A stretch of DNA of 64,000 nt, from NCBI GenBank assembly GCA_903834765.1, contig CAILKE010000072.1:1-64000 (forward strand), written 5' to 3'. Every line of letters starts with the position of its first letter. Within the stretch, counting starts at the first letter, position 1. Below, one piece after another: positions 9,557 to 29,595 of the stretch. This stretch comes from an uncultured Bacteroidota bacterium. GTDB taxonomy: Bacteria > Bacteroidota > Bacteroidia > B-17B0 > Aurantibacillaceae. Below the pieces are notes generated by a model. That model made no database searches. It had not been told where the DNA came from and saw only the letters and a list, made by a program, of their open reading frames with translations. A program made the position numbers and the translations under genes.

Positions 9557-10219
9557 ATGATCAAACCACTGCTTATTAAAACATCCTATGTTTTTATTGC
9601 CATATTACTTTGTGGACATGCCATTTCTCAAAATGAAATTAACATAGAAGGATCTCAAGTTATTTCAAATTTCAAATTTGTAAATAGTTCGGGCCTAATA
9701 GATAAAGACTATTTGAGCATTACTGGAGGCGCTTATGGTCTCTCATATCAGCGCACCACAAAAAAGAATTTACTATTTAAAGTTGGCGCAGGAATGAGAA
9801 AAGCAGGATCGACTTTAACTATTAGCAATGACAACTATAGCTGGCAATTACAATATATAGATGCTAAAATAAGCATAGGATACATGCTTAATAAATGGAG
9901 ACTAAAACCATATATCATGCTAACGCCTTATTATTCTTTTTTAACCAAAGCATATCAAACTGTAAATACACAGAACTATGATATGGTAAAAAACAAAACC
10001 ATTAAAAATTCTGATTATGGAGTAAATGGCTCATTTGGAATTAAAGTTACTTTATCTGACCTGTTTTCTATTTATGCAGAAGGAAGCTATTTATATGGTT
10101 TACAAAATAATGAAGTAAATACTAAGCAAAAGTTATATAACAGAGCTTATTTTATAACACTTGGCGCGACAATTAAAATTAGTAAACTTTCACCTAAATG
10201 GCTTCAAGAAGGAAAATAA
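9557..10219 (+). CDS. Outer-membrane beta-barrel protein
   Basis: A 220-residue protein with a signal peptide (hydrophobic to about residue 22, cleavage after AISQ). The mature part is a run of alternating amphipathic strands with aromatic girdle residues (LLFKVGAGMRKAGST, YMLNKWRLKPYIMLTPYY, FSIYAEGSYLYGL) and ends in a strand, as in small 8-stranded barrels. No enzyme motif is visible. It lies 3 bp after the T9SS cargo gene and 26 bp before the large adhesin, so a role in anchoring or exporting one of these is possible but not shown. Confidence 0.7.
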   Translation: MIKPLLIKTSYVFIAILLCGHAISQNEINIEGSQVISNFKFVNSSGLIDKDYLSITGGAYGLSYQRTTKKNLLFKVGAGMRKAGSTLTISNDNYSWQLQYIDAKISIGYMLNKWRLKPYIMLTPYYSFLTKAYQTVNTQNYDMVKNKTIKNSDYGVNGSFGIKVTLSDLFSIYAEGSYLYGLQNNEVNTKQKLYNRAYFITLGATIKISKLSPKWLQEGK

Positions 10220-10245
10220 ATAAGTATAATAAGTAAAAAATAAAT

Positions 10246-13200
10246 ATGAAAAATTTTTTAAATTTAGTGTTGTTCTTTTTAATTGTTTTTGGTTTTCAAA
10301 AGTCATTTGCACAATTAAGAGGTATTAATTATCAAGCAGTAGCAATAGATGCTAATGGTAAAGAAATTGCTGGCATGGATAATACTGGACAAGCTTTATC
10401 AGAAAAGACCATAGGGGTTAAATTCACCATTTTAGGTGGCGGTCAAAATGGTGCTAATTTGTATCAAGAAACTCACATCACTAACACAGATAAATTTGGA
10501 TTGTTTTCTTTAATTATTGGTGATGGACAAATAACAACTGTTGGCACCTACACGGCATTAATTGATATTCCTTGGTCTACAGCAAATCAATTTTTAAAAG
10601 TAGAGTTAGATTTAAATAATAATGGTGATTTTAAAGTCATGAGTATTCAGCAATTTATGGCGGTTCCTTATGCATTTTATGCTTTAAATACGAGTACTGC
10701 AAATGCTGGCCCAGCTGGCCCTCAAGGTCTGCAAGGTACTCCTGGAACAAACGGAACCAATGGTACTAACGGAACTAATGGTTTAAATTCATTAATAAAA
10801 ACAACACCCGAAGCTGCTGGCACTAATTGCACAACAGGAGGCTTTAAAACAGAATATGGTATAGATGCAAACAACAATAACACGCTTGATGTTGGAGAAA
10901 TTGTAACCGCATTAACTCAATATGTTTGTAATGGTGCAATAGGAACTGCAGGGAATAATGGAACAAATGGCGCTAATGGAAATAATTCTTTGATATCCAT
11001 TAATCCTGAAGCAGCTGGTGCAAATTGCCCAACAGGTGGATTAAAAGTAGAATATGGTTTAGATGCCAATAATAATGGGAATTTAGATGCCTCGGAAATA
11101 AATACTTCTTTAACTAAATATGTATGTAATGGTTCATCTAACGGTTCAAACACTTTAGTTTCTACAACTATAGAGTTAGTTGGGGCAAATTGTGCAACAG
11201 GCGGTATCATGGTTGAATATGGATTAGATGCTAATGCTAATGGGGTTTTAGATTTAGGAGAAGTAAATAGTAGCTTAACCAAATATATCTGCAACGGAGC
11301 GGTAGGAACAACAGGTGCCGCTGGAACTAATGGTACAAATGGGACGAATGGAACTAATGGGTTTAATTCACTCGTAAACACAACAATTGAATCTGCAGGT
11401 GTAAATTGTTCTACTGGAGGTGTGAAATTAGAATATGGGTTAGACGCAAACAATAACAATATATTAGATGCAGGAGAAATTGTAAGTACTTTAACACAAT
11501 ATGTTTGCAATGGCACAAACGGTAATAATGGAACCATTGGTGCAAACGGTGCAAACGGAACTAATGGTTTTAATTCGTTAGTAAACACAACTAATGAATC
11601 TGCCGGCACTAATTGTGCAACAGGTGGTGTAAAATTAGAATATGGATTAGATGCAAATAACAACAGTGTTTTAGATGCTGGAGAAATCATTATTGCACTA
11701 ACTAAATATGTTTGTAATGGTGCAGCTGGCCCTGCATCTAATCAATCATTAAGTGTTACGGGTAATACATTAAGTATTTCTGGTAGTAATTCGGTAACCT
11801 TGCCAACAGGAGCTGATTCTCAAACTTTGAGTATCATTGGAAATACAGTTTCCATTGCAAATGGAAATAGCATTACATTACCAACATACCCAACCTATAC
11901 AGCAGGAATTGGTATTGCTATAAATTCAGGTTCAATCATCACTAACACTGCTCCAAACCAAACAGTAACTTTATCAGGTACAGGCGCAGCAACAGTAACA
12001 GGAGCATATCCTAACTATACTGTCAATGCACCCGCAGCAACTCCACAAACAACTATAACAGGTTCAACTAATATTAATGTAACTGGTACAGCACCAAATT
12101 ACACAATCGCTTCTCCTAGTCAATCACTTAGTTTATCAAGCAATACATTAAGTATTACAGGTGCTAATAATGTAGTGTTACCTATTAGTACTGATTCTCA
12201 AACATTGAGTATTAACAGTAATTCAATTAGTATAGCAAATGGTAATACTATTACAATTCCTGTCAGTACTGATTCGCAAACCCTAAGTGTGTCTGGCAGA
12301 ACCTTAACTATTGCTAATGGAAATTCAGTAACTATTCCATCACAATCATTAAGTATTGCTGGTAACTCAGTGAGTATTTCAAATGGCAATACTATTGTTT
12401 TACCAACGGGTTCTGATACTCAAACTTTAAGTATTACAGGAAATAGTATAAGCATAGCAAATGGAAATACCATTACAATTCCAACTTACACTGCTGGTGC
12501 AGGAATTTCAATTAACTCAGGTTCTGTAATCATTAATTCGGCTCCAAACCAAACCGTAACATTAACAGGAACGGGAGCTGCTTCAGTAACTGGCGCTTAT
12601 CCAAGCTACACAGTTAATGCTCCTGCCGCAACACCTCAAACAACCATTACAGGTTCAACTAATATTAATGTAACTGGAACGACTTCAAATTATACGATTT
12701 CATCACCTAGTCAATCGTTAAGTGTTTCAGGTAATACATTAAGTATATCGGGTAGTAATTCGGTAACCTTACCAACTGGTGCAGATTCTCAAACATTAAG
12801 TATAAGTGGCAGAACTGTTAATATTTCAAATGGAAATAGTATTACTTTACCATCAGATAATGATGCTCAAACCTTAAGTTTAACAAGTAATACATTATCC
12901 ATTGCCAACGGAAACAGTGTAACATTACCAAGTTATACCACTTATACAGCTGGTACAGGCATTGCAATTAACTCTGGTTCAATTATTACAAATACAGCTC
13001 CTAACCAAACAGTAACTTTAGCAGGAACAGGAGCTGCTACTGTTACGGGAGCTTACCCTAATTATACCGTTAACGCACCAGCTAATACCGATGCACAAAT
13101 ATTAAGTTTAACAAGCAATACCTTAAGTATTAGTGGCGGCAATAATTTAGTGCTACCTGTTGGAGCAGATTCTCAAACATTATCAATTATAGGGAATACA

Positions 13201-15945
13201 GTTTCTATTGCTAATGGTAATTCAATTACATTGCCTAGTAGTTCTGGTTGGGGCTTAACAGGTAATACAGGTACAGTTGATGGTACAAATTTTATTGGAA
13301 CTACGGATAATGTGCCATTGAATTTTAAAGTGAATAATGTCATGTCTGGAAGAGTAGATTCTGCTTCTTCTAGCACATTTTTTGGTTATGCAGCTGGAAA
13401 ATTTACTACAGCCTATAATTCAACAGCAATAGGTTTTAAAGCTTTAAATGCTAACACAACTGGAACAAACACGGCTATTGGTTATAAGTCGCTTTCCTCA
13501 AATACAATTGGCTCAGGTAATACAGCAATAGGAGATTTTGCACTTACTTTTAATACTACGTCTAACAATAATACAGCTATTGGGAATGAAGCATTGATGC
13601 AAGGAGGAGGAGCGAATGGATTTAATACTGCAATTGGAGCAACTTCAATGAAATATTCTTTGAGTTCTTATAACACTGCAATTGGTTATGGGGCTCTCAA
13701 TTTTAATAATACTGGTGGTGGAAACACGGCAAATGGTTATTTATCCCTAACCTCTAATAATCTTGGTTCATTAAATACGTCTATGGGTTATCAATCATTA
13801 GCATTAAATACTGATGGTTCATATAATACTGCCTTAGGATATAGGACTTTATATAATAATACTACCGGATCAAATAATACAGCATTAGGTTATTCAGCAG
13901 GGGTTGCTACGGGTACATTAACAAATGTTACGGTTATAGGAGCAAACTCAAAAGTTTTGACTAGCAATAGTTTAATTTTAGGTGACACCACCAATGTAAA
14001 TGTTGGTATTGGTACAGGAGCACCTACTAAAAAACTTGATGTTAGAGGTGCAATTAGAATTGTTGATGGCACAGAGGGATTAAATAAAGTATTAACTTCG
14101 GATGCAAACGGTGTTGGTTCATGGCAATCACCAGTGGCTAGCAGCTCTGGTTGGGCTTTAACTGGTAATGCAGGAACTGTGGACGGCACAAATTTTATTG
14201 GAACAACTGATAATGTTCCATTTAATATAAGAGTCAACAACGCAAAAGCGGGAAGGATAGATTCTACTTCTTCTAGCACATTTTTTGGTTATGCAGCTGG
14301 AAAATTTACTACAGCCTATAATTCAACAGCAATAGGTTTCAAAGCATTAAATGCCAACACAACAGGCACAAACACTGCTATTGGTTATCTTGCTCTAAAT
14401 GCAAATACAACTGGTAACTTAAATACTGCTGTAGGTGTAAATGCTTTAAAAGCTAATACAACTGGGGCTAGCAATACAAGTATAGGATATAATTCATTAC
14501 CATCTAACACTTTAGGTTCAGGTAATACAGCTATTGGAGATAGAGCTTTGGCGCTAAATACTGTTTCTAATAATAATACAGCTATTGGACGTGAAGCAAT
14601 GACTCAAAACAATAACGGTACCAACACAGGGGTAGGTGCATATGCGTTAAGATCTGTAACCGGAAGTAATAATACAACTTTAGGGTATTATACGTTATAT
14701 AATACAACAACTGGTATTGGAAATATAGCTGTTGGAGCTAATGCAGGGAGTACAAATATTACAGGGGGCAGCAATACATTTTTAGGTTATAATACAGATG
14801 TTGGGGCTAATAATTTAACTAATGCAGGTGCTATAGGAGCTAATGCTAAAGTATTAAAAAGTAACAGTATAATTTTAGGTGATACCACTAACGTAAATGT
14901 TGGTATAGGAACTGGAGCGCCAAGTACTAAATTACATATTGTTGCTACAGCAACTAATACAGGTTTACGTTTAGTAGATGGCTCACAAGGAGTTGGCAAG
15001 GTATTAACATCAGATGCTAGTGGTAATGCAAGTTGGCAAACAGCTGGAGGAGGTAGTTCAATACCAACAGGAACTGTTGCAGGACAAATGTTATATTGGA
15101 ATGGAGCTGCATGGGTGACAATTTCAGCCGGTATCACTGGTCAAAGTCTTACTTTTTGTAATGGTGTGCCCACATGGGGGGGGTGTCCACCTGTAGTTAC
15201 CACTTCATCCGTAAGTTCTATATTTGCGACCAGCGCTTTATGCGGAGGAACAGTAACTTCTGATGGAGGTAACTCTATCTCAGCTCGTGGAGTGTGTTGG
15301 AACACTAGTCCTGGACCAACAACTTCAAATTCCATTACAACAAATGGAACTGGCCTCGGCACTTTTTCATCTAACTTAACTGGGTTAACTCCAGGAACAA
15401 CTTATTATATTAGGACCTATGCTACAAATAGCGCTGGAACTTCTTACGGTAACGAATTTAGTTTTACAACTTCTGTAACACTTGCAATTGGAGATTTTTA
15501 TCAGGGCGGTGTAATTTCATATTTTTTCACTTCCTCAGATCCTGGATATGTGGCAGGTCAACAGCATGGTTTAATTATTACCAACTACAATTTAAGTACA
15601 GGCATTCAGTGGTATAATGGTTCTAATATTTTAACTGGAGCGAATGGAATAAATATTGGTACTGGAAATTCCAATACCAATATAATTTATTCCGCACAAG
15701 GAGCAGGAAGTTACGCAGCACAACTATGTTATGACCTAATTTTAAATGGCTATACTGACTGGTATCTTCCAAGCAGAACCGAATTGATAAATAGTGTAAA
15801 TAATTTAAATATTAATGGTATACAATTATGGAGTTCTACTGAATTAAATAGTACTCAAGCAGGACAATATGCTATTGGTTTGGGATTTAATTATACTAAT
15901 AAAAATGTTACATCAATCGGAGTTAGAGCAATACGAACTTTTTAA
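10246..15945 (+). CDS. Giant mosaic surface adhesin (collagen-like, DUF7151, YadA-head-like repeats, FN3-like, Lcl/DUF1566-like)
   Basis: 1899 residues. After a signal peptide (cleavage near SFAQ, about 23) comes a conserved N-terminal module ([18 protein letters not shown]) to about 155. Then there is a Gly-X-Y collagen-like stretch ([13 protein letters not shown]) and five about 50-residue units with AGxNCxxGG and DANNNxxLDxGE, starting near residues 181, 247, 302, 374 and 443; these fit DUF7151 and are acidic enough to bind calcium. Residues about 500-1000 are NTLSIxGxNSVTLP repeats like phage tail fibres. About 1000-1600 holds two copies of a module with NTAIGYxAL repeats, as in the YadA head. 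An FN3-like domain follows (about 1645-1745). The end is a DUF1566/Lcl-like fold with [10 protein letters not shown]. There is no T9SS sorting domain, so its export and anchoring route is open. Likely a long trimeric fibre. Confidence 0.85.
13240..15050 (+). repeat. Two in-frame copies of a 903-bp adhesin module
   Basis: The module starting [20 protein letters not shown] near 13244 recurs as [20 protein letters not shown] near 14147, an offset of 903 bp (301 codons). Inside it, 13364-13436 and 14267-14339 are identical over 73 bp, including third codon positions, while the flanks have diverged. This points to duplication with local gene conversion. Confidence 0.85.
15176..15183 (+). other. 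Poly-G tract (G8) inside the adhesin gene
   Basis: Eight consecutive G encode the end of W-G-G just before the FN3-like domain. Loss of one G gives TAG six codons later; gain of one G gives TGA about 30 codons later. Either slip would remove the FN3 and Lcl-like C-terminal domains. Such a run is unusual in this AT-rich sequence. Confidence 0.7.
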
Positions 15946-16001
15946 ATTGAATACATTTTTGGTATTATATTTTTAATATACTTGATAATCAAAAAAATAG
16001 A

Positions 16002-18050
16002 ATGAAACATAAAAATTTAGTTACGAGTTTATTGAATATTGCTTTTCTTGTTTTTTTTGCAAAAACCTTAGTAGGGCAAACAAAAAATAATTTTAAACAA
16101 AAAGAGGCTTTGCTTAACAAGGCTAATACACTAATTAGTAAAGGTACTCCCGTTGCCACTATTTTATCTAAACAAGAAATTGTGGAACGTAACTGGAGCA
16201 ATTGGGATACTTACCAAAATTATAAAGAAGCATTAGCGGCTTGTCAGCAATTATTAGCAATATCACCAACCAATGCAAATTATAATTACAAGGCAGGTTT
16301 GTGCTATTTCTTTTCGTATGATGAGCAACACAAAGCTTTAGCTTATTTTAAACAAGCGGCTAAAAATTTAAGTAGAGATTATAGTTTTTCTAATACTACA
16401 GAAGAAAAAGCCCCCTACACTGCTTTGTATTTTTTAGCGCAATCGTTTTTAGAAAATAACCAACCCGATAGTGCGCTGAAATATTTTTCGTTATATCAAG
16501 ACAAACAAATTACAAGCGCTATTAATACAGAGCGTGGCTTAAGCATGAGTGTAAATGCAAAAAACGGAGAAAAGAATTTGCGTAATGTGACTGTAAAAAA
16601 TATGGGTTCAAAAATTAATACTTCGTTTGCAGAAAATAATCCTGTGGTTAAGTTAAATAACTCGATGATATTTTTTGCATCTCGTCGTCCTAATAAAGAA
16701 AATAATAGTAACGCAAATAATTCGGAAGATATTTATTATTGCACAAAAGATGCAGATGGTAAATGGAACGAACCGTCAGCCTTTAGATATAATACCGAGT
16801 TTGATGAAGCGCCCTTGCATATTTCGCCAGATGGATTAACGCTTTATTTTAAGAAAACTGTGAATGGAAATTCTGATTTTTATAGCACAACATTTAAAGA
16901 TGGAGCTTGGACAAAACCTGAAAATTTATCAGACATAAACACTGCATTTAATGAGGAAAGCTTAGGCATCACAGGCGATGGTAAAACAATGTATTTTAGT
17001 AGTGATAGAAATAAAGAGTTTGGCAAGTACGATATTTTTAAAAGCACGTTAAGTACAAAAGCAAAATGGTCAACTCCTGTTTTATTAAGCAAAACAATTA
17101 ATACGGTTTTTGATGAAGTGTCGCCTTTTATTACTCCTGACGGCGCTGTTTTATTTTTTAGTTCTAATGCTTTTGCAGGTAAAGGCCTTGGTGGTATGGA
17201 TGTTTATTATAGTGAATTAAAACCTAATAAAGGGTGGCAAGAGCCTCAAAGTTTGGGTTATCCCATTAATAAAACACGTAACGATGTGCAATATTATATT
17301 TCATCTGGCGATAAGCGTTTTTACAGTAGTTTAACAGATAATAATAGTTATGATTTATTTGAAGTTGAAGGTGGTGGTTTTGATTTCGAATCCTTAGCGG
17401 CATCTATGGATGTTGTAACGGTGACTAATGAGATGGGAGTAACTCAATTAATGGAAACCGAAAAGAAAGTAGAGAAAGAAGTGGAAGTTACTCAAACCAT
17501 TGAAACCGAAGTTGAGAAAGAAAAAGAAGTGGAGATTAATAAGGCGTTAGAAGAAAAGGAAAAAGAAGTGGAAGTGAATCAACCTGTTAATGAATTAGGT
17601 GATAAAGAAGTTAAGGTTTCTGACGTTAACGTGGATAATTTAACAGAAGAACAACGTAAAGAATTGGTTGAAAAAGTAAAAAAATATTTAATTGAACAAT
17701 TAGCTACTTCCGAATCAGTTAAATTTAAGGTGGTATTCTTCGACTTTAATAAGAGTAATTTGAATTTATTATCCTTAAACGAATTAAAATTATTAGTGGA
17801 ATTTTTAGGAGAACACCCCGAAACTAAAATTGAAATTGCAGGACATGGTGATAATAAAGGGAGTTGGGCAACTAACTTAGGTTTATCAAATAAAAGAGCC
17901 AAAGAAGTTTATGATTTTTTGATCAATAACAAAGTATCACCTGATAGAATGTTTTATTACGGAAAAGGCAGCGCGGTGCCAATAGCGCCAAATGATACTG
18001 AAGAAAACAGAGGGAAGAATAGAAGGGTAGAAGTATTTATATTAAAATAA
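16002..18050 (+). CDS. PorE-like OmpA-family protein (TPR, PD40 propeller, OmpA_C)
   Basis: 682 residues with a signal peptide (cleavage near LVGQ, about 26). TPR-like helices span about 65-165 (NYNYKAGLCYFFS, FLENNQPDSALKYF). A PD40/WD40-like propeller follows at about 195-465, with repeated SPDGLTLYF, TGDGKTMYFSSDR and TPDGAVLFFSSN blades. A strongly charged Glu/Lys/Val linker (about 480-550) leads to an OmpA C-terminal peptidoglycan-binding domain (575-682) with NLGLSNKRAKEVYDFL and RGKNRRVE. This order matches PorE of the T9SS, except that the carboxypeptidase-regulatory domain is replaced by the charged linker. It should tether an outer-membrane complex to peptidoglycan. The next gene follows after 14 bp. 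Confidence 0.88.
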   Translation: MKHKNLVTSLLNIAFLVFFAKTLVGQTKNNFKQKEALLNKANTLISKGTPVATILSKQEIVERNWSNWDTYQNYKEALAACQQLLAISPTNANYNYKAGLCYFFSYDEQHKALAYFKQAAKNLSRDYSFSNTTEEKAPYTALYFLAQSFLENNQPDSALKYFSLYQDKQITSAINTERGLSMSVNAKNGEKNLRNVTVKNMGSKINTSFAENNPVVKLNNSMIFFASRRPNKENNSNANNSEDIYYCTKDADGKWNEPSAFRYNTEFDEAPLHISPDGLTLYFKKTVNGNSDFYSTTFKDGAWTKPENLSDINTAFNEESLGITGDGKTMYFSSDRNKEFGKYDIFKSTLSTKAKWSTPVLLSKTINTVFDEVSPFITPDGAVLFFSSNAFAGKGLGGMDVYYSELKPNKGWQEPQSLGYPINKTRNDVQYYISSGDKRFYSSLTDNNSYDLFEVEGGGFDFESLAASMDVVTVTNEMGVTQLMETEKKVEKEVEVTQTIETEVEKEKEVEINKALEEKEKEVEVNQPVNELGDKEVKVSDVNVDNLTEEQRKELVEKVKKYLIEQLATSESVKFKVVFFDFNKSNLNLLSLNELKLLVEFLGEHPETKIEIAGHGDNKGSWATNLGLSNKRAKEVYDFLINNKVSPDRMFYYGKGSAVPIAPNDTEENRGKNRRVEVFILK

Positions 18051-18064
18051 ATCTAATTATTAAA

Positions 18065-20626
18065 ATGAAAAAGATAATAGCAATTGTAGTTTTTGCCACG
18101 AGTTTAATATTTCAATTAACGGCTCAAACACAAATTAGAGTAAAAGAAAATGCTCACGAAGGTGGCGTATCTGCTTTATGTTTAGGTAACAATGGAGAGA
18201 CCGCTATTACAGCTGGTGAAGATTTAAAAACCTTTGTTTGGAATATAAACACTGGCGAAAAATTAAAAGGAGCCTTAAAATTTGCAGATAAAATTACTGC
18301 TGTTGCTATCAATGGCAATAGTAAATTTTATGTGTCTGGCAGTAATGATATGCGCCTGAGAGTAGTAGATATAGAACAAGGTATTCCTACACGAGTTATG
18401 GCAGAGCACACTGCTGCAATTACAGCCGTATGTTTTAATCCAATAAATGATTTTATTGCGAGTGCTGGAAAAGATAATTTGATTAAAATTTGGGATAATA
18501 GTAAAAGTAAAACTTCAATTAAGACTTTATCAGGTAATGAAAAAGAAATTAATGCTTTAGTGTTTGCTCCAGATGGAAAAAAATTATTTTCGGGTTCTGC
18601 AGATGATCAAATTAAAATTTGGGACGCTACTTCTTGGGAATTACAAAAAACAATTTCTGCCGAAAGTAAAGGTGTTATTGTATTATCAATGAGTTCGGAC
18701 GGCACACTATTAGCAAGTGGCGGTTTAAATGGCATGGTGAAATTATGGAATGCTTTTTCTGGTGAATTAATATCTGAAGTCAAAGCATTTAAAAACTCGA
18801 TTTCGTCTATCAGTATAAGTGCAGATAGTAAATATGTATTTATCTCATCAACTGAGAAAAAGATTGTAATTTATAATATAGGTGATAAAAAGATTGAAAA
18901 AGAATTAGCTGCTCATGATAATGAAATAACGGGAGTTGCTGTAAGTAGTAAAGGTGATATGTTGATTACCGTCAGTAAAGATGCTACCATGAAAACATGG
19001 GATATTAGTAATTTGAAAATAGGAAAAGCAAAATTCGCTGCCTCATCAGAGGTTCCTGAATTAAGTATAAATAGTATAAATATAAAAGATGCCAATAATA
19101 ACGGTATTATTGAACCAGGAGAAAAAGCAAATTTAGTTTTCACTGTAAAAAATTCAGGAAAAGGAGTTGCCTTTAATGTATCAGCTAAGCTAAAACAAAG
19201 TAATACTAGCTTAGATGTAAAATTTAATGAAACAGCAAATATTGGCAATATTGATAATAATAAAAAACAAGAAGTTAGTATTCCGTTAAGCGTGGCAGCT
19301 GATGTTGAACAAGGCTCTGGAACTTTTGAAATTGTTGTACAAGATGCAAATTCACAAAGTGTTGTTTCTAGTAAATATAATTTTCAAATTGGTGGCTCCA
19401 CAAATTACAGTTACATCATGGTGATGGGTCAAACATTTAGTTCTGCAACTGGCAAAGCAACTATCGGAGCTCCTATTAGTACTAAATTAAAAATTAAAAA
19501 TGTAGCTAAAACAGAAGCTAAAAACATCAAAGTCAATTTCTTATTACCTGAAAATGTTGTAGCGGTAAATAAATTATTTGAAGTAATTCCATCTATAGCT
19601 AGTGGCGAAGAAAAGGAAATTGTATTAGATTTTTATGCGAATCAAAACTATAAAAAAACAGATATTAATATTGGATTAGATATTGAAGGCGCAGCTTATT
19701 CAAATGCTAAAGAAATTATTTTAAAAGTAAAATTAAATGAAGCATTGCCTTTGGGCGAAGATTATACCAAAGCAGTGGAGCAAGAACAAGTGGCTTTGCA
19801 AGAAAATACAACTAATTCTTCATCTGAAGAAACATTATACCGTGGCGGCTCGGGGCCAATGAAAGGTTTAAATGTAAATAAACCAAAAGAAATGGTAGTT
19901 GGCAAATACTATGCATTAATTATCGGCATTGATAAATACAAGGCACCTTGGAATGCTCTAATAAATGCAGTAAATGATGCCAAAGCAATAGAAACAGCAT
20001 TACGAACACAATATAAATTTGATGCATTTAAAACCCTATATAACGAGCAAGCTAACAGAGAAGCTATTATTACAGAACTAGAATGGTTAGTAGCCAATGC
20101 AAAAGAAAATGATAATGTGTTCGTTTTTTATTCGGGGCATGGCGAATATAAAAAAGAGTTAGGCAAAGGTTATTGGGTTCCTGTTGATGCAGTGACATCT
20201 TCAACATCAAAATATATTTCAAACTCTGATTTGCAAACTTATATCAATGGTATTAAATCTAAACACACGCTATTAGTTTCCGATGCTTGTTTTAGTGGAG
20301 ATATTTTTAGAGGGAATACCGTTTCGGTTCCATTTGAAGAATCAGAAAAATATTACAAAGAAGTTCATAGTTTAGTTTCGCGCCAGGCAATTACCTCTGG
20401 TGGTATTGAACCTGTTATGGATGGCGGAAAAGATGGACACTCCGTATTTACTTATTATTTTTTAAAATCATTAAATGATAATAAATCAAAGTATTTTGAT
20501 GCTAGTCAGATTTATACAAAAATAAAAATACCTGTAATTAATAACTCCGAACAAACGCCAAAATTATCACCAATAAAAAATGCTGGTGATGAAGGTGGGC
20601 AGTTTATATTTATTCGCAAAATGTAA
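18065..20626 (+). CDS. Exported WD40-caspase (peptidase C14) fusion
   Basis: 853 residues. The signal peptide is about 1-20 (LIFQLTAQ). A seven-bladed WD40 propeller spans about 28-318, with repeated IKIWD/VKLWN blade ends. Two immunoglobulin-like CARDB-type domains follow: the first at about 330-445 opens with an acidic DANNNGIIEPGE loop, the second spans about 450-560. The C-terminal domain (about 613-850) is a caspase/metacaspase fold: YALIIGIDKY, then YSGHG with catalytic His692, and SDACFSG with catalytic Cys742, so the dyad is intact. Bacterial caspases with WD40 are usually cytoplasmic; here the signal peptide predicts periplasmic or outer-membrane location. Substrate unknown; metacaspases usually cut after Arg/Lys. 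It sits between the OmpA/PD40 gene (14 bp) and the SpoIIE sensor (3 bp), implying one operon. Confidence 0.9.
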   Translation: MKKIIAIVVFATSLIFQLTAQTQIRVKENAHEGGVSALCLGNNGETAITAGEDLKTFVWNINTGEKLKGALKFADKITAVAINGNSKFYVSGSNDMRLRVVDIEQGIPTRVMAEHTAAITAVCFNPINDFIASAGKDNLIKIWDNSKSKTSIKTLSGNEKEINALVFAPDGKKLFSGSADDQIKIWDATSWELQKTISAESKGVIVLSMSSDGTLLASGGLNGMVKLWNAFSGELISEVKAFKNSISSISISADSKYVFISSTEKKIVIYNIGDKKIEKELAAHDNEITGVAVSSKGDMLITVSKDATMKTWDISNLKIGKAKFAASSEVPELSINSINIKDANNNGIIEPGEKANLVFTVKNSGKGVAFNVSAKLKQSNTSLDVKFNETANIGNIDNNKKQEVSIPLSVAADVEQGSGTFEIVVQDANSQSVVSSKYNFQIGGSTNYSYIMVMGQTFSSATGKATIGAPISTKLKIKNVAKTEAKNIKVNFLLPENVVAVNKLFEVIPSIASGEEKEIVLDFYANQNYKKTDINIGLDIEGAAYSNAKEIILKVKLNEALPLGEDYTKAVEQEQVALQENTTNSSSEETLYRGGSGPMKGLNVNKPKEMVVGKYYALIIGIDKYKAPWNALINAVNDAKAIETALRTQYKFDAFKTLYNEQANREAIITELEWLVANAKENDNVFVFYSGHGEYKKELGKGYWVPVDAVTSSTSKYISNSDLQTYINGIKSKHTLLVSDACFSGDIFRGNTVSVPFEESEKYYKEVHSLVSRQAITSGGIEPVMDGGKDGHSVFTYYFLKSLNDNKSKYFDASQIYTKIKIPVINNSEQTPKLSPIKNAGDEGGQFIFIRKM

Positions 20627-20629
20627 GCG

Positions 20630-23600
20630 ATGAGCTATCCTTTAAAAACAACCGTTTATTATGTTGTGCTAGTTATTGTATTGTCGATAACAGCATTAAA
20701 TGCTCAGATTAACAATTTTAAAAAATGGACTATTAGAGAGGGGCTCTCTCAATCCGATGCATATTCAATTACGCAGGATCACCGCGGCTATTTATGGATT
20801 GGTACTAGTGCTGGAATCTCTATTTTTGATGGTAAAACATTTGTAAACTATGCAAAAAAAGATGGTTTATGTGGTAATGTCATTAGAGCTATTTTCGAAG
20901 ATTCGAAAAAACGAATCTGGCTTGCTTCAGAAAATGGTGTATCTGTTTATGATGGAAAAAAATTCACACGAATTAATCAAGAACAAGGATTTAAAGGACA
21001 CAGCGCCACAGCTATAACAGAACTTCAAAACAAAATTTTTGTATCAACGGATGATGGTGGTATCAATATTATTTCTTATTCAACAAATGGAAAATATAAA
21101 ATTAATTATTTGAGCGATGAAAATGGTTTATCATCAAATACAATTTTTTCTTTAATAACAGATAAACATAATCGCATTTGGGCTGCAACCTTTGGAGGCG
21201 GAATCAATGTTATTTCTTTTAGCAATAACAAACCAACCGTTCAAGTATTTAAAGGATTTGACAAAATCCCCAGTGATAATTTATACGCTTTGAATATTGA
21301 TGATGATGAAAATTTATGGATTAGTGCCGAAGAAGTTGGAGTTTTAAAAATTAAGGTAACCCAATTTTTAAACAATAATTATAGCTATCAATTTTTAAAT
21401 GATAAAAATGGATTAACTTCTAAAACTATTTGGTGTATTTTGACAGCTAAAAATAATGAGGTTTGGTTTGGAACTTTAGACAATGGAATTTATAGACTAA
21501 AAGACGAAAAAATTATTCAATACAGTGTTAATGAAGGATTAAATGGAAATCAAGTTCTCTCATTTTTTCAAGACCAGAACCGCCATGTTTGGATAGGCAT
21601 GCAGGGAGAAGGACTTGCGATGCTTCAAGGCGATTATTTTTCTCATTATTCAAAAAATAATGGATTATCTGATAATAAAGTGCAGGCTATTGTTAAAGAT
21701 AATTTTCAAAATTATTGGTTGGCAACTTCCGAAGGTGGATTAATTAATATGAAATTAGAAAATGGGAAGCCAACATTTACCGTATATAACGAATCATTAG
21801 GCCTTCCTACAAATGAATTAAGCTGCTTAGCATTTGGCAATACTACAAATACTAATTTATGGATAGGAACAAATGAAAAAGGAATTGTGAAATTTGACGG
21901 TAAAAATTTCACAAACTACACCACCAATAATGACCTTTCAAATAACAGCGTATACTCTATCTGTGTTGATGATAAAGGAATTGTTTGGTGCGGTACAGCC
22001 GATGGAATAAGCAGATTTGATGGTGTAAAATTTTTAAATGTTTCTACTGAAAAAATGTTGATGCAAAATGAAGGTGTTAAATCTATAGTTTGCGATAAAA
22101 CAGGAAATGTTTGGTTTGCAACTGCAGGTGGAATAGCAAGGTATGGAGGAAATGAAAAACTCAGAACATTTGATGAGGTGGAGGGATTAAAGTTTAAAGA
22201 TGTCAATTCATTAGCGGTTGATAAAAATGATCATATTTGGATTGGCACTAATGGAGGAGGTATTTATAAATTTGATAAAAAGAAAAATGACAGCCTTGCA
22301 ATTAGTAACGAGTTAAATGAAATGCAATTGAGTTCAGGCATTATAAAATCGATGGTGTTTTTAAATGATTCAACTTTAATAGCAGGAACATTTAAAGGTT
22401 TCGACAGAATAACTTTTGATAAAAACTTTAAAGTAAAGTCAGTGGTTAATTATAATGCAAATGATGGCTTCATTGGTCAGGAATGTAATGAAAACGCACT
22501 ATTTTTAGATACAGATCAAACAGTATGGTTTGGCACAGTAAAAGGATTAACGAAGTATATTCCAAATAAAGAACTTCACTCAAAATTATCTCCTACTTTA
22601 GAAATAACTGATATTCAACTATTTTATAAATCTATCAATTGGCTTGAAAAAGGAGAAAAACTTTTGAGTTGGGAAAACTCACCAAGTAAAAGTATTTTCT
22701 CTCACTCGGAAAACCATTTAACGTTTAAATTTAATGCAGCTGTTTTAGATAATCCTGAAAAACTATTATACTCTTATATTTTAGAAGGAAAGGAAACGCA
22801 ATGGTCGCCTGCAAAACCAAATGCAGAAATCACCTATTCTGGATTAGAACCAGGCAAATATATTTTTAAGGTAAGAGCTATTGATGCGACTGCTATTTGG
22901 TCAGAGCCACAAACGTTTAGTTTCGAAATTACTCCACCTTGGTATAAAACAAAAATATTTTATATTTCCTCAATTTTATTATTAATCATTTCTATTGTTT
23001 CTTATGTTAAGTGGCGCGAAAAAAAATTGGTCAAAGAGAAACAAAATTTAGAAAGGATAGTAGATGAAAAAACGCTTGAAATTCGAGAGCAAAAAGAAGA
23101 TATTGCGCATAAACATAAAGAGATTACTGATAGTATTAATTATGCTGAACGAATTCAACGAAGTTTTTTGGCAACTAATCAAATTTTAGATACTAATTTG
23201 AAAGATTATTTTGTGTTCTTTAAACCAAAAGATGTTGTTAGTGGTGATTTTTATTGGGCCGATACCTTGCCAAATGGAAACTTCATACTGGTAACTGCTG
23301 ATAGTACTGGCCATGGCGTACCTGGAGCTATTATGAGTTTATTAAACATTACAAGTTTGGAAAAAGCTATAGAACATTTAACAAATCCCGCAGCGATATT
23401 AAATCATACTCGTAAAACTATTATTACGCGTTTAAAAAAAGATGGAAGTGCTGAAGGTGGAAAGGATGGAATGGACTGTTGTGCAATGGTATTTGATTTT
23501 AAAAATAAAAAACTATTTGTAGCTGCTGCCAATAATCCAATATGGATTGTCAGAAAAAAGATTATTGATAATTCTGAAGATTATAATTATGAGTTAATTG

Positions 23601-23902
23601 AGATTAAATCAGACAAAATGCCAGTAGGTAAGCATGACAGAGATCAAGAATCATTTGCGCTTCATGAAATTGGTTTAATGGAAGGAGACATTATTTATTC
23701 TTTAACAGATGGTTTCCCTGATCAATTTGGTGGTGAAAAAGGAAAGAAATTCATGAGTAAAAATCTTAAACAATTATTATTGCAAAACGCTTTCCAAACA
23801 ATGAATGAGCAAAAACAAATACTAGAAAAAACCTTCTCAAATTGGTTAGGTAACTTAGAGCAAATTGACGATGTGACTGTATTTGGAGTTAAGATAAACT
23901 AA
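20630..23902 (+). CDS. Two-component-regulator propeller sensor with SpoIIE/PP2C phosphatase output
   Basis: 1090 residues. A short N-terminal hydrophobic signal (to about residue 25, LNAQ) is followed by about 650 residues of Reg_prop repeats (DHRGYLWIGTSAGIS, NHIWIGTNGGGIYKF and others) forming extracytoplasmic propellers. A Y_Y_Y domain follows (about 690-765, SYILEGKETQW), then one membrane segment (about 772-795), a coiled coil (about 800-845) and a cytoplasmic SpoIIE-type PP2C phosphatase (about 855-1090). Metal-binding aspartates are visible in SGDFYWAD, TADSTGHG and SLTDGFPDQ. In Bacteroidota this sensor architecture is normally coupled to a histidine kinase; here the output is a Ser/Thr phosphatase, which in partner-switching systems acts on an anti-sigma antagonist. 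No such partner is adjacent. ATG is 3 bp after the caspase stop. Confidence 0.9.
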   Translation: MSYPLKTTVYYVVLVIVLSITALNAQINNFKKWTIREGLSQSDAYSITQDHRGYLWIGTSAGISIFDGKTFVNYAKKDGLCGNVIRAIFEDSKKRIWLASENGVSVYDGKKFTRINQEQGFKGHSATAITELQNKIFVSTDDGGINIISYSTNGKYKINYLSDENGLSSNTIFSLITDKHNRIWAATFGGGINVISFSNNKPTVQVFKGFDKIPSDNLYALNIDDDENLWISAEEVGVLKIKVTQFLNNNYSYQFLNDKNGLTSKTIWCILTAKNNEVWFGTLDNGIYRLKDEKIIQYSVNEGLNGNQVLSFFQDQNRHVWIGMQGEGLAMLQGDYFSHYSKNNGLSDNKVQAIVKDNFQNYWLATSEGGLINMKLENGKPTFTVYNESLGLPTNELSCLAFGNTTNTNLWIGTNEKGIVKFDGKNFTNYTTNNDLSNNSVYSICVDDKGIVWCGTADGISRFDGVKFLNVSTEKMLMQNEGVKSIVCDKTGNVWFATAGGIARYGGNEKLRTFDEVEGLKFKDVNSLAVDKNDHIWIGTNGGGIYKFDKKKNDSLAISNELNEMQLSSGIIKSMVFLNDSTLIAGTFKGFDRITFDKNFKVKSVVNYNANDGFIGQECNENALFLDTDQTVWFGTVKGLTKYIPNKELHSKLSPTLEITDIQLFYKSINWLEKGEKLLSWENSPSKSIFSHSENHLTFKFNAAVLDNPEKLLYSYILEGKETQWSPAKPNAEITYSGLEPGKYIFKVRAIDATAIWSEPQTFSFEITPPWYKTKIFYISSILLLIISIVSYVKWREKKLVKEKQNLERIVDEKTLEIREQKEDIAHKHKEITDSINYAERIQRSFLATNQILDTNLKDYFVFFKPKDVVSGDFYWADTLPNGNFILVTADSTGHGVPGAIMSLLNITSLEKAIEHLTNPAAILNHTRKTIITRLKKDGSAEGGKDGMDCCAMVFDFKNKKLFVAAANNPIWIVRKKIIDNSEDYNYELIEIKSDKMPVGKHDRDQESFALHEIGLMEGDIIYSLTDGFPDQFGGEKGKKFMSKNLKQLLLQNAFQTMNEQKQILEKTFSNWLGNLEQIDDVTVFGVKIN

Positions 23903-23924
23903 TTTAGAATAGCTTGTTGAATAT

Positions 23925-25223
23925 TTAATTTTTTCTCATCGAATTCAACCGTCTGATAGCAACAAGTTGATCATAATAAGTACCTCTTTGTCTATGATAT
24001 ACATATATAGCATAATCATTTTCAGTTTCCCAGTGGCTGCCTTCGGTTAATGTTTCATCTCCAGCTTTTTGTTTGTCTTTTAAAAATACAAAGGTATAAT
24101 TGTAATAGCCTTGTTTCATAAGGATATCACATTCGTACCCAAAGCGTTTGTAATTATAAGTCATTCTATTTGATTTACCCAATCGCCAATCAGTCAATTT
24201 ACCTAATACATAAAAATTACCCTCGCTTTGGGCATTATCGTATGCTAAAAAGAAATGAACCATTACATAATCGGCTTCTGAATCAGGGCTTCCTAATGCA
24301 TCTTGATTTTTAATTAAATAACCACCATTCAAATCATTATAAAAAGAATAGCCTTTATAAGAACGAGGTTCATCTCTTTTGAGAACTAGGTTATATTTAT
24401 AAGAGCTGTCTTTGTAAATAGATTCAACTCTTTCGGTATATGTTCGTAACGAACGCGTATCAAAATACCTAAATTCATTTCCGCCTGTAAAAGTTGATTT
24501 ATCATCTAAGGAATAGGTTAATTGACGAGGCTCTACAAATGTTGGCTTAATATTATTAATAGCATTATCCCAACGGTTATTTTGAGTTATTATTACTTTT
24601 AAATCGGTAAAAGGGTTCGTTAATTCATAAGCTCCATTTAGTATAGAAAATTCTATATGTTGTTTTTCGTATTGCTCATCGTTACCAATGGCTTGGCGTA
24701 TGTTAGCCATTACTGTAATTTTATCTTCAAAAATCATAAAGCGTTTTGTGAGTATTAACTTATCTTTATTATTATCTAAATACACATAAACAATGTAGTT
24801 ACCAGATTTAGAGAACTGCATATTGGCTTGTGGAAATAATATAGAGTAATGCGTATACTTTTGGAGTGTTACTGTTGAATATGCGAAATTTAAAATATTA
24901 GCTTCGTAAAAGCCTACCATGTATTCTGAGCTCATTAAATCAGACGGCTCCCAATTAGCATTGCAATGCACAAAACTGATGGAGTAATTTTTTTTATCTG
25001 CATCTAAATCATCAAAACTCAATTCTAATTTTTCAGCACCATTTAAAGGTAGGATTGCTGCTGCATTGTCCCAAGAAGATTCATGTAATAAGGCTGTTTT
25101 AATATTTGATTTATAAACCCAGTCTTCATAGCGAAGCTGATCGTCGTTTACATAATCATCTTGACAAAAAATGGGTAATCCGTATATTGTTAAATAAAGA
25201 AAAAATAGTTTAAAATGAGTCAT
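23925..25223 (-). CDS. T9SS plug protein (DUF5103 family)
   Basis: 432 residues with a signal peptide (LTIYGLPIFCQ) and a beta-rich body: GAEKLELSFDDLDADKKNYS, HCNANWEPSDLMSSEYMVGF, FEDKITVMANIRQAIGNDEQ and the C-terminal VLGKLTDWRLGKSNRMTYN are landmarks of DUF5103. This family includes the plug that closes the periplasmic side of the SprA translocon in the type IX secretion system. Its presence fits the many sorting-domain proteins in the window. It converges on the SpoIIE sensor gene with only 22 bp between stops. It stands alone rather than in a T9SS operon. Confidence 0.85.
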   Translation of the reverse strand: MTHFKLFFLYLTIYGLPIFCQDDYVNDDQLRYEDWVYKSNIKTALLHESSWDNAAAILPLNGAEKLELSFDDLDADKKNYSISFVHCNANWEPSDLMSSEYMVGFYEANILNFAYSTVTLQKYTHYSILFPQANMQFSKSGNYIVYVYLDNNKDKLILTKRFMIFEDKITVMANIRQAIGNDEQYEKQHIEFSILNGAYELTNPFTDLKVIITQNNRWDNAINNIKPTFVEPRQLTYSLDDKSTFTGGNEFRYFDTRSLRTYTERVESIYKDSSYKYNLVLKRDEPRSYKGYSFYNDLNGGYLIKNQDALGSPDSEADYVMVHFFLAYDNAQSEGNFYVLGKLTDWRLGKSNRMTYNYKRFGYECDILMKQGYYNYTFVFLKDKQKAGDETLTEGSHWETENDYAIYVYHRQRGTYYDQLVAIRRLNSMRKN

Positions 25224-27378: not shown

Positions 27379-29595
27379 ATGCCAACTAAATATCTATTCT
27401 TACTAATCACTTTTTTAAGTTTTGTTGTTTCATCATTTTCTCAAACAAATACCAGAAAATGGCGTAAAACCGAAAATGACTCTATGGAACGTTCATTGCT
27501 ACTTTACTACGAGGCAAATTATATCATGGCATTGCCTATTTATGAGAAATTGTATTCAGCACATCCAAAAGAAGAATATTTGAAGTATTGTTATGGACGT
27601 TGTGCTTTATATAGGAGTGATAAGCATAATGTAGCTTTAAGTTTATTGAATGAAGTGTATCAAAAAAACAAAAAAATTGAAAATATAAAATTTGATTTAG
27701 CTAAAGCCAATCATTTTAACTTAAAATTTGACGAAGCTCTGACTCTTTTGGATGAATTTTTGGCGGACAAAAAAGTAAAACCAGAAATAAAAAAAGAAGC
27801 TAATCAATTAAAGTTATATTGTATTAACGCTAAGAAGTTTTTTGCTAATCCAACCAATGCCAAAATTGAAAATGTTGGAAACACAATAAATACAGTTAAT
27901 GATGAGTATGTTCCTGTTATTTCTGCAGATGAATCTATTATGATATATACTTACAGAGGTACTCAAAGCATGGGTGGATTACAAGACGCTTTCCAACAAA
28001 TAGATCCTTATGGTTTTTATTATGAAGATGTTTATCAATCTAACAAAGAAAATGGACAATGGACAAAACCTAACCCCATCTCAACTATTAATACTAATTC
28101 GCACGATGCGGCCATAGCCTTAAGTGCCGATGGCCAACAATTATTTGTATATAAAGATAATGCAGACGATCATGGTGATATTTATGTAATTTATTTTGCA
28201 AATAATGCGTGGACTGTTCCTCAAAAATTAAGAGGTGAGGTAAACTCTTATTCATGGGATGGAAGTTGTTCGATGACTGCCGATGGAAAACAATTATATT
28301 ATAGTAGCGAGCGTGGTGGTGGTTATGGTGGAAAAGATATTTACAGAGCAACCTTACAACCTGATAGCACTTGGGGTCAAGTGATAAACTTGGGTGATAG
28401 TATCAATACAGCTTTGGATGATGATGCGCCTTTTATTCATCCTGATGGTGTAACATTGTTTTATAGCTCTAAAGGAAAAAATAGTATGGGAGGATACGAT
28501 ATTTTTCAAGCTCGGTTAAATATATTAGATTCTTCGTTCAATCAGCCCGTAAATTTAGGTTATCCTATCAATACACCTGATGATGACATTTACTATGTTC
28601 TTTCTGCTAATGGAGAACGAGGTTATTATGCCTCTGGAAAACAAGGTGGCTATGGCTTAAAAGATATTTATACAGTTTACCCAGGTTATGTTGGAAAAAA
28701 ACCATCTTTATTTATTGTTAAAGGTAAAATTACTGTCGACTTACAGCCTGTGGAATCAAATATTACTGTGGAAATAACAAGTAAAAACAATAATCAATTT
28801 GGCGAATTTAAAAGTAATTCTTTGAATGGGAATTATTTGATTTCTTTACCTGCTGGTGGTATTTTTAATATAACTTATAAGTACAATAAATTCCCACATA
28901 AATCAATAGAAATTAACACAATGAACTTAGAAGGATATGATGAAAAGTTATATGATATAGAGTTCAATAATAAGGATACAACAAAACCTATTGCAACTCT
29001 TGCGCCTAAAGATTCAATTGTTGCTGTTGTTGTAGTAAAAGATGTAGTAAAAGAAAAAGATGTGAAGAAGGAAGAAGTAAAGAAAGCAATTACAAAAAAA
29101 GAAGATGTAACGCAACCAATAGTAAAGAAAGAATTAGTAAAACAATCGTTTGTTAAAAAGGAAGAACCGAAACCTTCCATTGCAAAAAAAGAACAATTAC
29201 CTATTGAGAAACAACCTGTTATTATAGTTCGCAAAAAAGAAGGCTCTGTTCCACGAAATGCGGCTCAACAAAAAAACAGAGTGTATAGCGAACTTTATTC
29301 TGATATCAGTGCAGAAGGATTAGAATTTAAAGTACAAATTGCTGCTTATAAATATCCTAAAAATTATTTATACATACATTTAAAAGGTTTAGGTGCTATA
29401 CAAAATTTAATACTTAATGATGATATTACTCGAATTACCATCGGTGGATCATTTAACACTATTGGTAAAGCATACGAACGATGTGAAAAGGTAATAGCTG
29501 CTGGTCAAAATGATGCCTTTGTCACAGTAATATACAAAGGAAAACGAATCTATTTAGAAGATTTAGAAACGATGGGGATTTATGTAAAAAAGTAA
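27379..29595 (+). CDS. PorE-like TPR/PD40/CRD protein with C-terminal SPOR domain
   Basis: 738 residues. The signal peptide is about 1-22 (VVSSFSQ). TPR-like helices run from about 30 to 155, a PD40 propeller from about 160 to 440 (SADGQQLFVYKDN, TADGKQLYYSSER, HPDGVTLFYSSKG), and a carboxypeptidase-regulatory-like domain from about 445 to 545 (VKGKITVDLQPVESNITVEI). A Lys/Val/Glu-rich linker with repeated KKE-V units follows (about 555-640). The end (about 650-738) fits a SPOR domain: LEFKVQIAAYKYPKN, ITIGGSFNTIGKAYERC, NDAFVTVIYKGKRI. SPOR domains bind peptidoglycan lacking stem peptides. The layout is that of PorE with OmpA_C swapped for SPOR, so an outer-membrane-complex tether is the best guess. 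Monocistronic, divergent from the PagL-like gene across 229 bp. Confidence 0.82.
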   Translation: MPTKYLFLLITFLSFVVSSFSQTNTRKWRKTENDSMERSLLLYYEANYIMALPIYEKLYSAHPKEEYLKYCYGRCALYRSDKHNVALSLLNEVYQKNKKIENIKFDLAKANHFNLKFDEALTLLDEFLADKKVKPEIKKEANQLKLYCINAKKFFANPTNAKIENVGNTINTVNDEYVPVISADESIMIYTYRGTQSMGGLQDAFQQIDPYGFYYEDVYQSNKENGQWTKPNPISTINTNSHDAAIALSADGQQLFVYKDNADDHGDIYVIYFANNAWTVPQKLRGEVNSYSWDGSCSMTADGKQLYYSSERGGGYGGKDIYRATLQPDSTWGQVINLGDSINTALDDDAPFIHPDGVTLFYSSKGKNSMGGYDIFQARLNILDSSFNQPVNLGYPINTPDDDIYYVLSANGERGYYASGKQGGYGLKDIYTVYPGYVGKKPSLFIVKGKITVDLQPVESNITVEITSKNNNQFGEFKSNSLNGNYLISLPAGGIFNITYKYNKFPHKSIEINTMNLEGYDEKLYDIEFNNKDTTKPIATLAPKDSIVAVVVVKDVVKEKDVKKEEVKKAITKKEDVTQPIVKKELVKQSFVKKEEPKPSIAKKEQLPIEKQPVIIVRKKEGSVPRNAAQQKNRVYSELYSDISAEGLEFKVQIAAYKYPKNYLYIHLKGLGAIQNLILNDDITRITIGGSFNTIGKAYERCEKVIAAGQNDAFVTVIYKGKRIYLEDLETMGIYVKK

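Follow-up and report, generated by a model that had tools for sequence, protein, structure and literature searches.

A predicted exported caspase of Bacteroidota and its genomic link to a SpoIIE phosphatase

Bacterial caspases are mostly discussed with respect to cell death inside the cell. What such a protease would do outside the cytoplasm, and with which partners, is the question raised by an ATG-started open reading frame (18065-20626, + strand) in a 64,000-nucleotide stretch of a contig from an uncultured Bacteroidota bacterium (CAILKE010000072.1; hereafter the window). Its product, a protein of 853 amino acids, was pictured in the initial annotation as an exported processing enzyme, perhaps calcium-controlled and working beside a peptidoglycan-tethered propeller protein. 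The comparisons below point to a different principal partner and suggest a role for the caspase in trans-envelope signalling, not in cell suicide.

Architecture and export of the caspase protein

From N to C terminus the protein carries a signal peptide, a WD40 propeller, two Ig-like domains, and a Peptidase_C14 domain. ORF calling, Pfam, and AlphaFold2 bear out the reading frame and these domains, and His692 and Cys742 lie exactly where initially annotated:

18065..18124, + strand: Sec/SPI signal peptide, residues 1-20 (KK n-region, hydrophobic core; predicted cleavage between A20 and Q21)
18131..19003, + strand: seven-bladed WD40 beta-propeller, residues 23-313 (Pfam; AlphaFold2 pLDDT about 90)
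19061..19390, + strand: first Ig-like beta-sandwich, residues 333-442 (AlphaFold2 strands, pLDDT about 80)
19088..19123, + strand: EF-hand-like acidic loop DANNNGIIEPGE, residues 342-353, within the first Ig-like domain (orthologue alignment A1)
19412..19732, + strand: second Ig-like beta-sandwich, residues 450-556 (AlphaFold2 strands, pLDDT about 80)
19838..19876, + strand: conserved linker motif YRGGSGPMKGLNV, residues 592-604 (kept across the tight group)
19898..20623, + strand: Peptidase_C14 caspase domain, residues 612-853 (Pfam, Foldseek)
20138..20140, + strand: catalytic His692 (YSGHG), invariant in alignments A1, A2, and A4
20288..20290, + strand: catalytic Cys742 (DACFSG), invariant in alignments A1, A2, and A4

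The WD40 assignment (Pfam, E=3e-46) is matched by the predicted structure, which resembles the bacterial WD40 domain 5yzv with a TM-score of 0.95, and the propeller is a putative sensor or binding module. Weak NCBIfam matches relate the first Ig-like domain to like domains from exported peptidases. At residues 616-835, Peptidase_C14 (PF00656) scores 77.8 bits, well over the cut-off of 21.4 (E=1.3e-21); the domain ends in a conserved GDEGGQFIFIRK (the GDEGG tail) and is preceded by a linker that AlphaFold2 predicts to be disordered. Modelled alone, with moderate confidence (AlphaFold2, mean pLDDT 65.5), the caspase domain best matches the metacaspase structures 7qp1, 4f6p, and 4afr at a Foldseek probability of 1.0; yeast, trypanosome, and plant metacaspases are all among its matches. 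The full-length AlphaFold2 model, built from 12 sequences, is poor in its caspase part, and the domain-only model gives the better fold match.

The leader, MKKIIAIVVFATSLIFQLTA followed by QTQ, has an Ala-Gln cleavage site, as expected from the Bacteroidetes Q-rule: in this phylum, most signal peptidase I substrates begin with Gln once cleaved (PMC5837995). Gln21 is invariant in 12/12 aligned full-length orthologues (47-61% identical), whose leaders otherwise vary, and recurs in the 22 WD40-type orthologues listed. Orthologues devoid of a signal peptide, which by the initial annotation would have taken away the unusual feature, did not appear: the Q-rule leader is kept in all those examined, and export out of the cytoplasm is well supported on this comparative basis. 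Neither is the protein a lone exported exception. When 139 distinct caspase domains from Bacteroidia were surveyed and one simple rule was applied throughout, it proved to belong to an exported family with about 100 members. Among complete ORFs, 101 of the 112 proteins with a C-terminal caspase carry an export signal (93 Q-type, a few lipoprotein-like) versus 1 of 12 with an N-terminal caspase; because signal peptides were called by a hand-written rule rather than SignalP, and single calls may be wrong, the evidence lies in the contrast between the two groups. Cysteine content differs as well (0.5 per 100 aa in exported members vs 0.85) and carries little weight. Of the "periplasmic or surface" location first proposed, the periplasm is the likelier half, since neither Pfam nor NCBIfam matches a type IX sorting domain in the caspase protein and the caspase fold itself forms the C-terminus; a type IX secretion cargo was ruled out for want of a C-terminal sorting domain.

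Caspase cores of the closest relatives, the tight group, are 62-86% identical to that of the window, and the core is highly conserved rather than fast-evolving. The N-terminal modules, by comparison, are swapped among WD40, leucine-rich repeats, ankyrin repeats, PQQ/BamB-like, DUF5122, and SBBP propellers, and Glucodextran_B-type Ig domains. Some members bear lipoprotein-type leaders. Several genomes encode 4-7 family members and the window's genome one; a search of 19 genomes from the window's genus yielded no member. These proteins apparently form a large, undescribed family in Bacteroidota. One unusually dense locus (L187:1001-19123; G178:C96:331324-349447) holds a tandem array of eight caspase genes of the exported type, all on one strand, each with a C-terminal caspase and most with ends that adjoin or slightly overlap.

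Catalytic site, specificity, and linker motif

His692, Cys742, Asp638, and Asp740 are invariant over 47 diverse family members, which makes it likely that the caspase is an active protease. Asp638, Ser690, and Asp740 align with the S1 residues Asp95, Ser156, and Asp211 of the metacaspase TbMCA2, while the fourth, Cys92, is replaced by Ala635. With three of four pocket residues kept, cleavage after a basic P1 residue (Arg/Lys), as originally predicted, is our best guess.

The proposed calcium control fares less well. In an alignment that is moderate with respect to AtMC4, the positions of the TbMCA2 calcium-site residues Asp173, Asp189, Asp190, and Asp220 are occupied by Trp704, Ser719/Asn720/Ser721, and Arg749; activation through the canonical metacaspase site is thus unlikely, and we rejected it on these residues. 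The acidic loop of the first Ig-like domain, in which N344, N346, and G347 are invariant and the acidic ends are kept among orthologues (alignment A1), is a possible Ca2+ site.

Between the second Ig-like domain and the caspase, the tight group has the motif [YMF]RGxGDPLKGLNV, whose Arg sits 19-20 residues ahead of the caspase core. It occurs in 79 of the 83 assessable tight members, behind different sensors, and in 0 of 44 looser relatives; a further four tight members, in which the motif is masked or falls at a contig end, are excluded from the 83. The surrounding region is otherwise variable and predicted disordered (AlphaFold2 pLDDT 26-39). As the enzyme is predicted to cut after Arg, R593-G594 is a good candidate for a self-cleavage site, and a cut there would be comparable to the N-terminal processing that occurs in metacaspases (PMC9622860). 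The sequence agrees equally well with a structural role within the caspase fold or with a pseudosubstrate segment. A search of neighbouring proteins for YRG-GDPLKG as a substrate signature returned two weak, unrelated matches only, and neither the SpoIIE phosphatase nor the OmpA protein encoded alongside the caspase showed a cleavage motif.

Genomic linkage to a SpoIIE phosphatase

The gene directly downstream encodes a protein whose layout, from its leader (ALNA/QINN) through a Reg_prop propeller, a Y_Y_Y domain, a transmembrane helix, and a helical linker to a cytoplasmic SpoIIE domain, would span the inner membrane:

20630..23902, + strand: partner gene, 1090 aa, 4 bp after the caspase stop (Pfam, topology, conserved neighbour)
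22949..23011, + strand: partner transmembrane helix, residues 774-794 (hydropathy 2.1 over 19 residues)
23273..23896, + strand: partner SpoIIE (PP2C-type) phosphatase domain (PF07228, 66-71 bits, above cut-off)

A phosphatase homologue lies directly downstream of the caspase, on the same strand, at 19 loci. These comprise 12 of the 20 WD40-type orthologues with enough downstream sequence (the other eight have no adjoining phosphatase) and seven loci with different or cut-off N-termini; caspases with other N-termini followed by the phosphatase occur at L019, L156, L157, L174, L176, and L179. With 22 SpoIIE domains in the 3.6 Mb of the window's genome, such adjacency should rarely arise by chance.

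Co-occurrence extends the link beyond adjacency. Across 394 other Bacteroidia genomes, 29 encode a tight caspase, 23 a close phosphatase orthologue, and 22 both (Fisher p=6e-29), at similarity thresholds that, for the phosphatase as for the OmpA/PD40 neighbour, were set after the lists had been seen; the genomes are related and thus non-independent, many are MAGs, and the broad partner searches scored the two best candidates per genome. Seven tight-caspase genomes fall without a close phosphatase orthologue by these thresholds, one of which (G623) encodes a more distant member of the phosphatase clade. There, at G623:C5:116376-120297 (L169), the clade phosphatase is convergent with the caspase gene, 8 bp apart. 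A tree of 48 phosphatases places the 30 from caspase-bearing genomes in one clade (SH-aLRT 99), outside which fall the 18 nearest other phosphatases, all from genomes without a tight caspase. The tree is a better test than the search cut-off of 1e-185: G029, which passes it and is the one apparent exception in the threshold-based count, and G018, a genus-search genome whose match attains it along only part of the protein, both fall outside the clade. Within families f6, f21, f80, f83, f85, and f88, some genomes have both caspase and phosphatase and others have neither. The clade also has its own conserved Lys/Arg residues at positions 86, 638, and 674 of the partner, which are candidate cut sites only.

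Our preferred reading, to which we give an even chance of being right, is that the exported periplasmic caspase provides the proteolysis in an envelope-based signalling module that controls the trans-envelope SpoIIE phosphatase. The WD40 and Ig-like modules would hold or sense a periplasmic ligand, with the YRG-x-GDPLKGLNV linker restraining the caspase domain or serving as its tether. Engagement of the sensor would switch the protease on, probably with self-cleavage after Arg593, and the active caspase would then cut a periplasmic target after Arg or Lys. The likeliest target or binding partner would be the periplasmic propeller/Y_Y_Y domain of the co-encoded phosphatase, through which an event outside could cause an anti-sigma antagonist in the cytoplasm to be dephosphorylated. 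The OmpA/PD40 protein probably holds the module in place at the peptidoglycan or outer membrane. Of this scheme, the domains, the dyad, the conserved export signal and motif, and the gene linkage and co-occurrence are read from sequence, whereas protease activity and its specificity, self-cleavage, the phosphatase as substrate, and the direction of signalling are inferred. Elsewhere, SpoIIE-type phosphatases are switched via helical linkers beneath varied sensors (PMC12143880). In the window's genome, a single small STAS protein and a single stand-alone HATPase_c_2 protein clearly exceed the cut-offs; together with the SpoIIE domains, they mean that an output route for the phosphatase exists at the level of gene content. 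On these grounds, we propose that the caspase controls the phosphatase by cutting or binding its periplasmic part.

A more specific proposal, which we advance tentatively, is that interchangeable periplasmic sensors are joined to a near-invariant caspase that, once freed by Arg-Gly self-cleavage, would cut or bind one dedicated propeller-SpoIIE phosphatase and thereby control gene expression in the cytoplasm, so that several sensor-caspases per cell could feed one phosphatase. If true, the signalling reading would give bacterial caspases a concrete, testable role outside the cytoplasm and suggest an upstream signal for one of the SpoIIE phosphatases, which are very numerous in Bacteroidota. 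The 22 SpoIIE phosphatases of this genome, set against one STAS/HATPase_c_2 pair, may many of them converge on a single partner-switching pair.

Competing readings and known systems

The propeller protein singled out in the initial annotation lies on the other side of the caspase gene:

16002..18050, + strand: upstream neighbour with signal peptide (LVG/QTK), TPR, PD40 propeller, and OmpA peptidoglycan-binding domain (residues 579-674) (Pfam, leader)

Its linkage is real, in that a caspase is present in 13/13 genomes with a close OmpA/PD40 orthologue (p=9e-17, at a threshold chosen in the same way as for the phosphatase), and the two genes adjoin in several loci, in varying orientation. As a partner, the phosphatase is more consistently conserved than this neighbour across the genomes compared.

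The OmpA/PD40 linkage speaks for the main rival reading, the one originally put forward, in which the caspase is a general Arg/Lys processing enzyme for envelope or surface proteins and the phosphatase and OmpA proteins are co-regulated neighbours rather than targets. Gingipain-type clan CD enzymes do process exported proteins in Bacteroidota, and 5-7 caspases with different binding modules in one genome are what several substrates would lead one to expect. Such an enzyme offers no account, however, of one phosphatase clade nearly restricted to caspase-bearing genomes, and we consider this reading somewhat unlikely.

The order of events could also be reversed, with the phosphatase sensing the periplasm and the exported caspase being a product of its regulon or an executor of envelope damage (lysis or fratricide). 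Prokaryotic caspases are often tied to cell death, an outside location has been suggested for fratricide (PMC3501461), and the variety of sensor modules could serve to recognise targets. Against this stand the high conservation of a core that is not fast-evolving and the lack of any toxin, immunity, or defence partner: PADLOC found no known anti-phage defence partners, matching only generic single domains (caspase, repeat, OmpA). We judge the reversed order distinctly less probable than a processing enzyme. A defence-island reading was likewise rejected, there being no PADLOC system partner.

Less probable again is a caspase that serves as an envelope binding or scaffold protein and is proteolytically silent in vivo. 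The replacement of TbMCA2 Cys92 by Ala635 speaks for it, loss of this Cys lowering activity in relatives (PMC5756287), and the invariance of the dyad and two S1 Asp residues across the 47 diverse members speaks against it. A cytoplasmic protein like other WD40-caspases, whose leader either stays on as an anchor or was wrongly called by our home-made rule, is very improbable given a cleavage-site Gln that stays invariant while the leader varies, lipoprotein-type leaders in some family members, and the failure of N-terminal-caspase proteins under the same rule.

Exported prokaryotic caspases as such are not new. Asplund-Samuelsson et al. reported in 2012 that 46 prokaryotic caspase homologues may have signal peptides, classed 30 sequences as extracellular, and noted OmpA in 14 caspase operons (PMC3501461); the text of that paper does not mention SpoIIE or a phosphatase. 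Searching the open-access full-text literature for SpoIIE together with caspase or metacaspase gave no relevant paper. What appears to be unreported is the link to the phosphatase, the linker motif, and the split between C-terminal, exported and N-terminal, cytoplasmic caspases.

The window's protein shares with prokaryotic metacaspases or orthocaspases (MEROPS C14B, MaOC1) the C14 domain, the His-Cys dyad, the acidic S1 pocket, and fusion to WD40 and other repeats (PMC3501461). In orthocaspases the caspase is more commonly N-terminal (PMC5756287), whereas here it is C-terminal, behind the sensor, in an exported protein with its own linker motif and GDEGG tail and a SpoIIE phosphatase link. 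Type I metacaspases (yeast Yca1, C. glabrata MCA-I, TbMCA2) give the best sequence and fold matches and the equivalents of Asp95, Ser156, and Asp211, but the present protein is bacterial and exported, does not conserve the four-Asp calcium site, and carries Ala at the Cys92 equivalent. Gingipains and other exported clan CD peptidases (C25, C11) likewise place a caspase-like fold with Arg/Lys preference outside the cytoplasm (PMC4357240); they belong to a different peptidase family and have no known SpoIIE partner, and the type IX sorting domain is absent from the window's protein by the searches above. The partner gene, for its part, shares the order sensor, helical linker, SpoIIE with RsbU/RsbP/SiaA-type phosphatases (E=7e-47 to the SiaA model, below that model's cut-off) and differs in its periplasmic two-component-type propeller and the exported caspase next door.

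The caspase and phosphatase genes close a same-strand run (9557-23902). Upstream, this run takes in a 1899-aa exported protein (10246-15945) in which long repeated cassettes and collagen-like stretches accompany five DUF7151 repeats. A promoter and terminator scan of 15800-24100 gave matches no higher than shuffled expectation. Another PD40 propeller protein, likewise bearing a signal peptide, is encoded 3.5 kb downstream (27379-29595), and at another locus (L006) its homologue follows the caspases.
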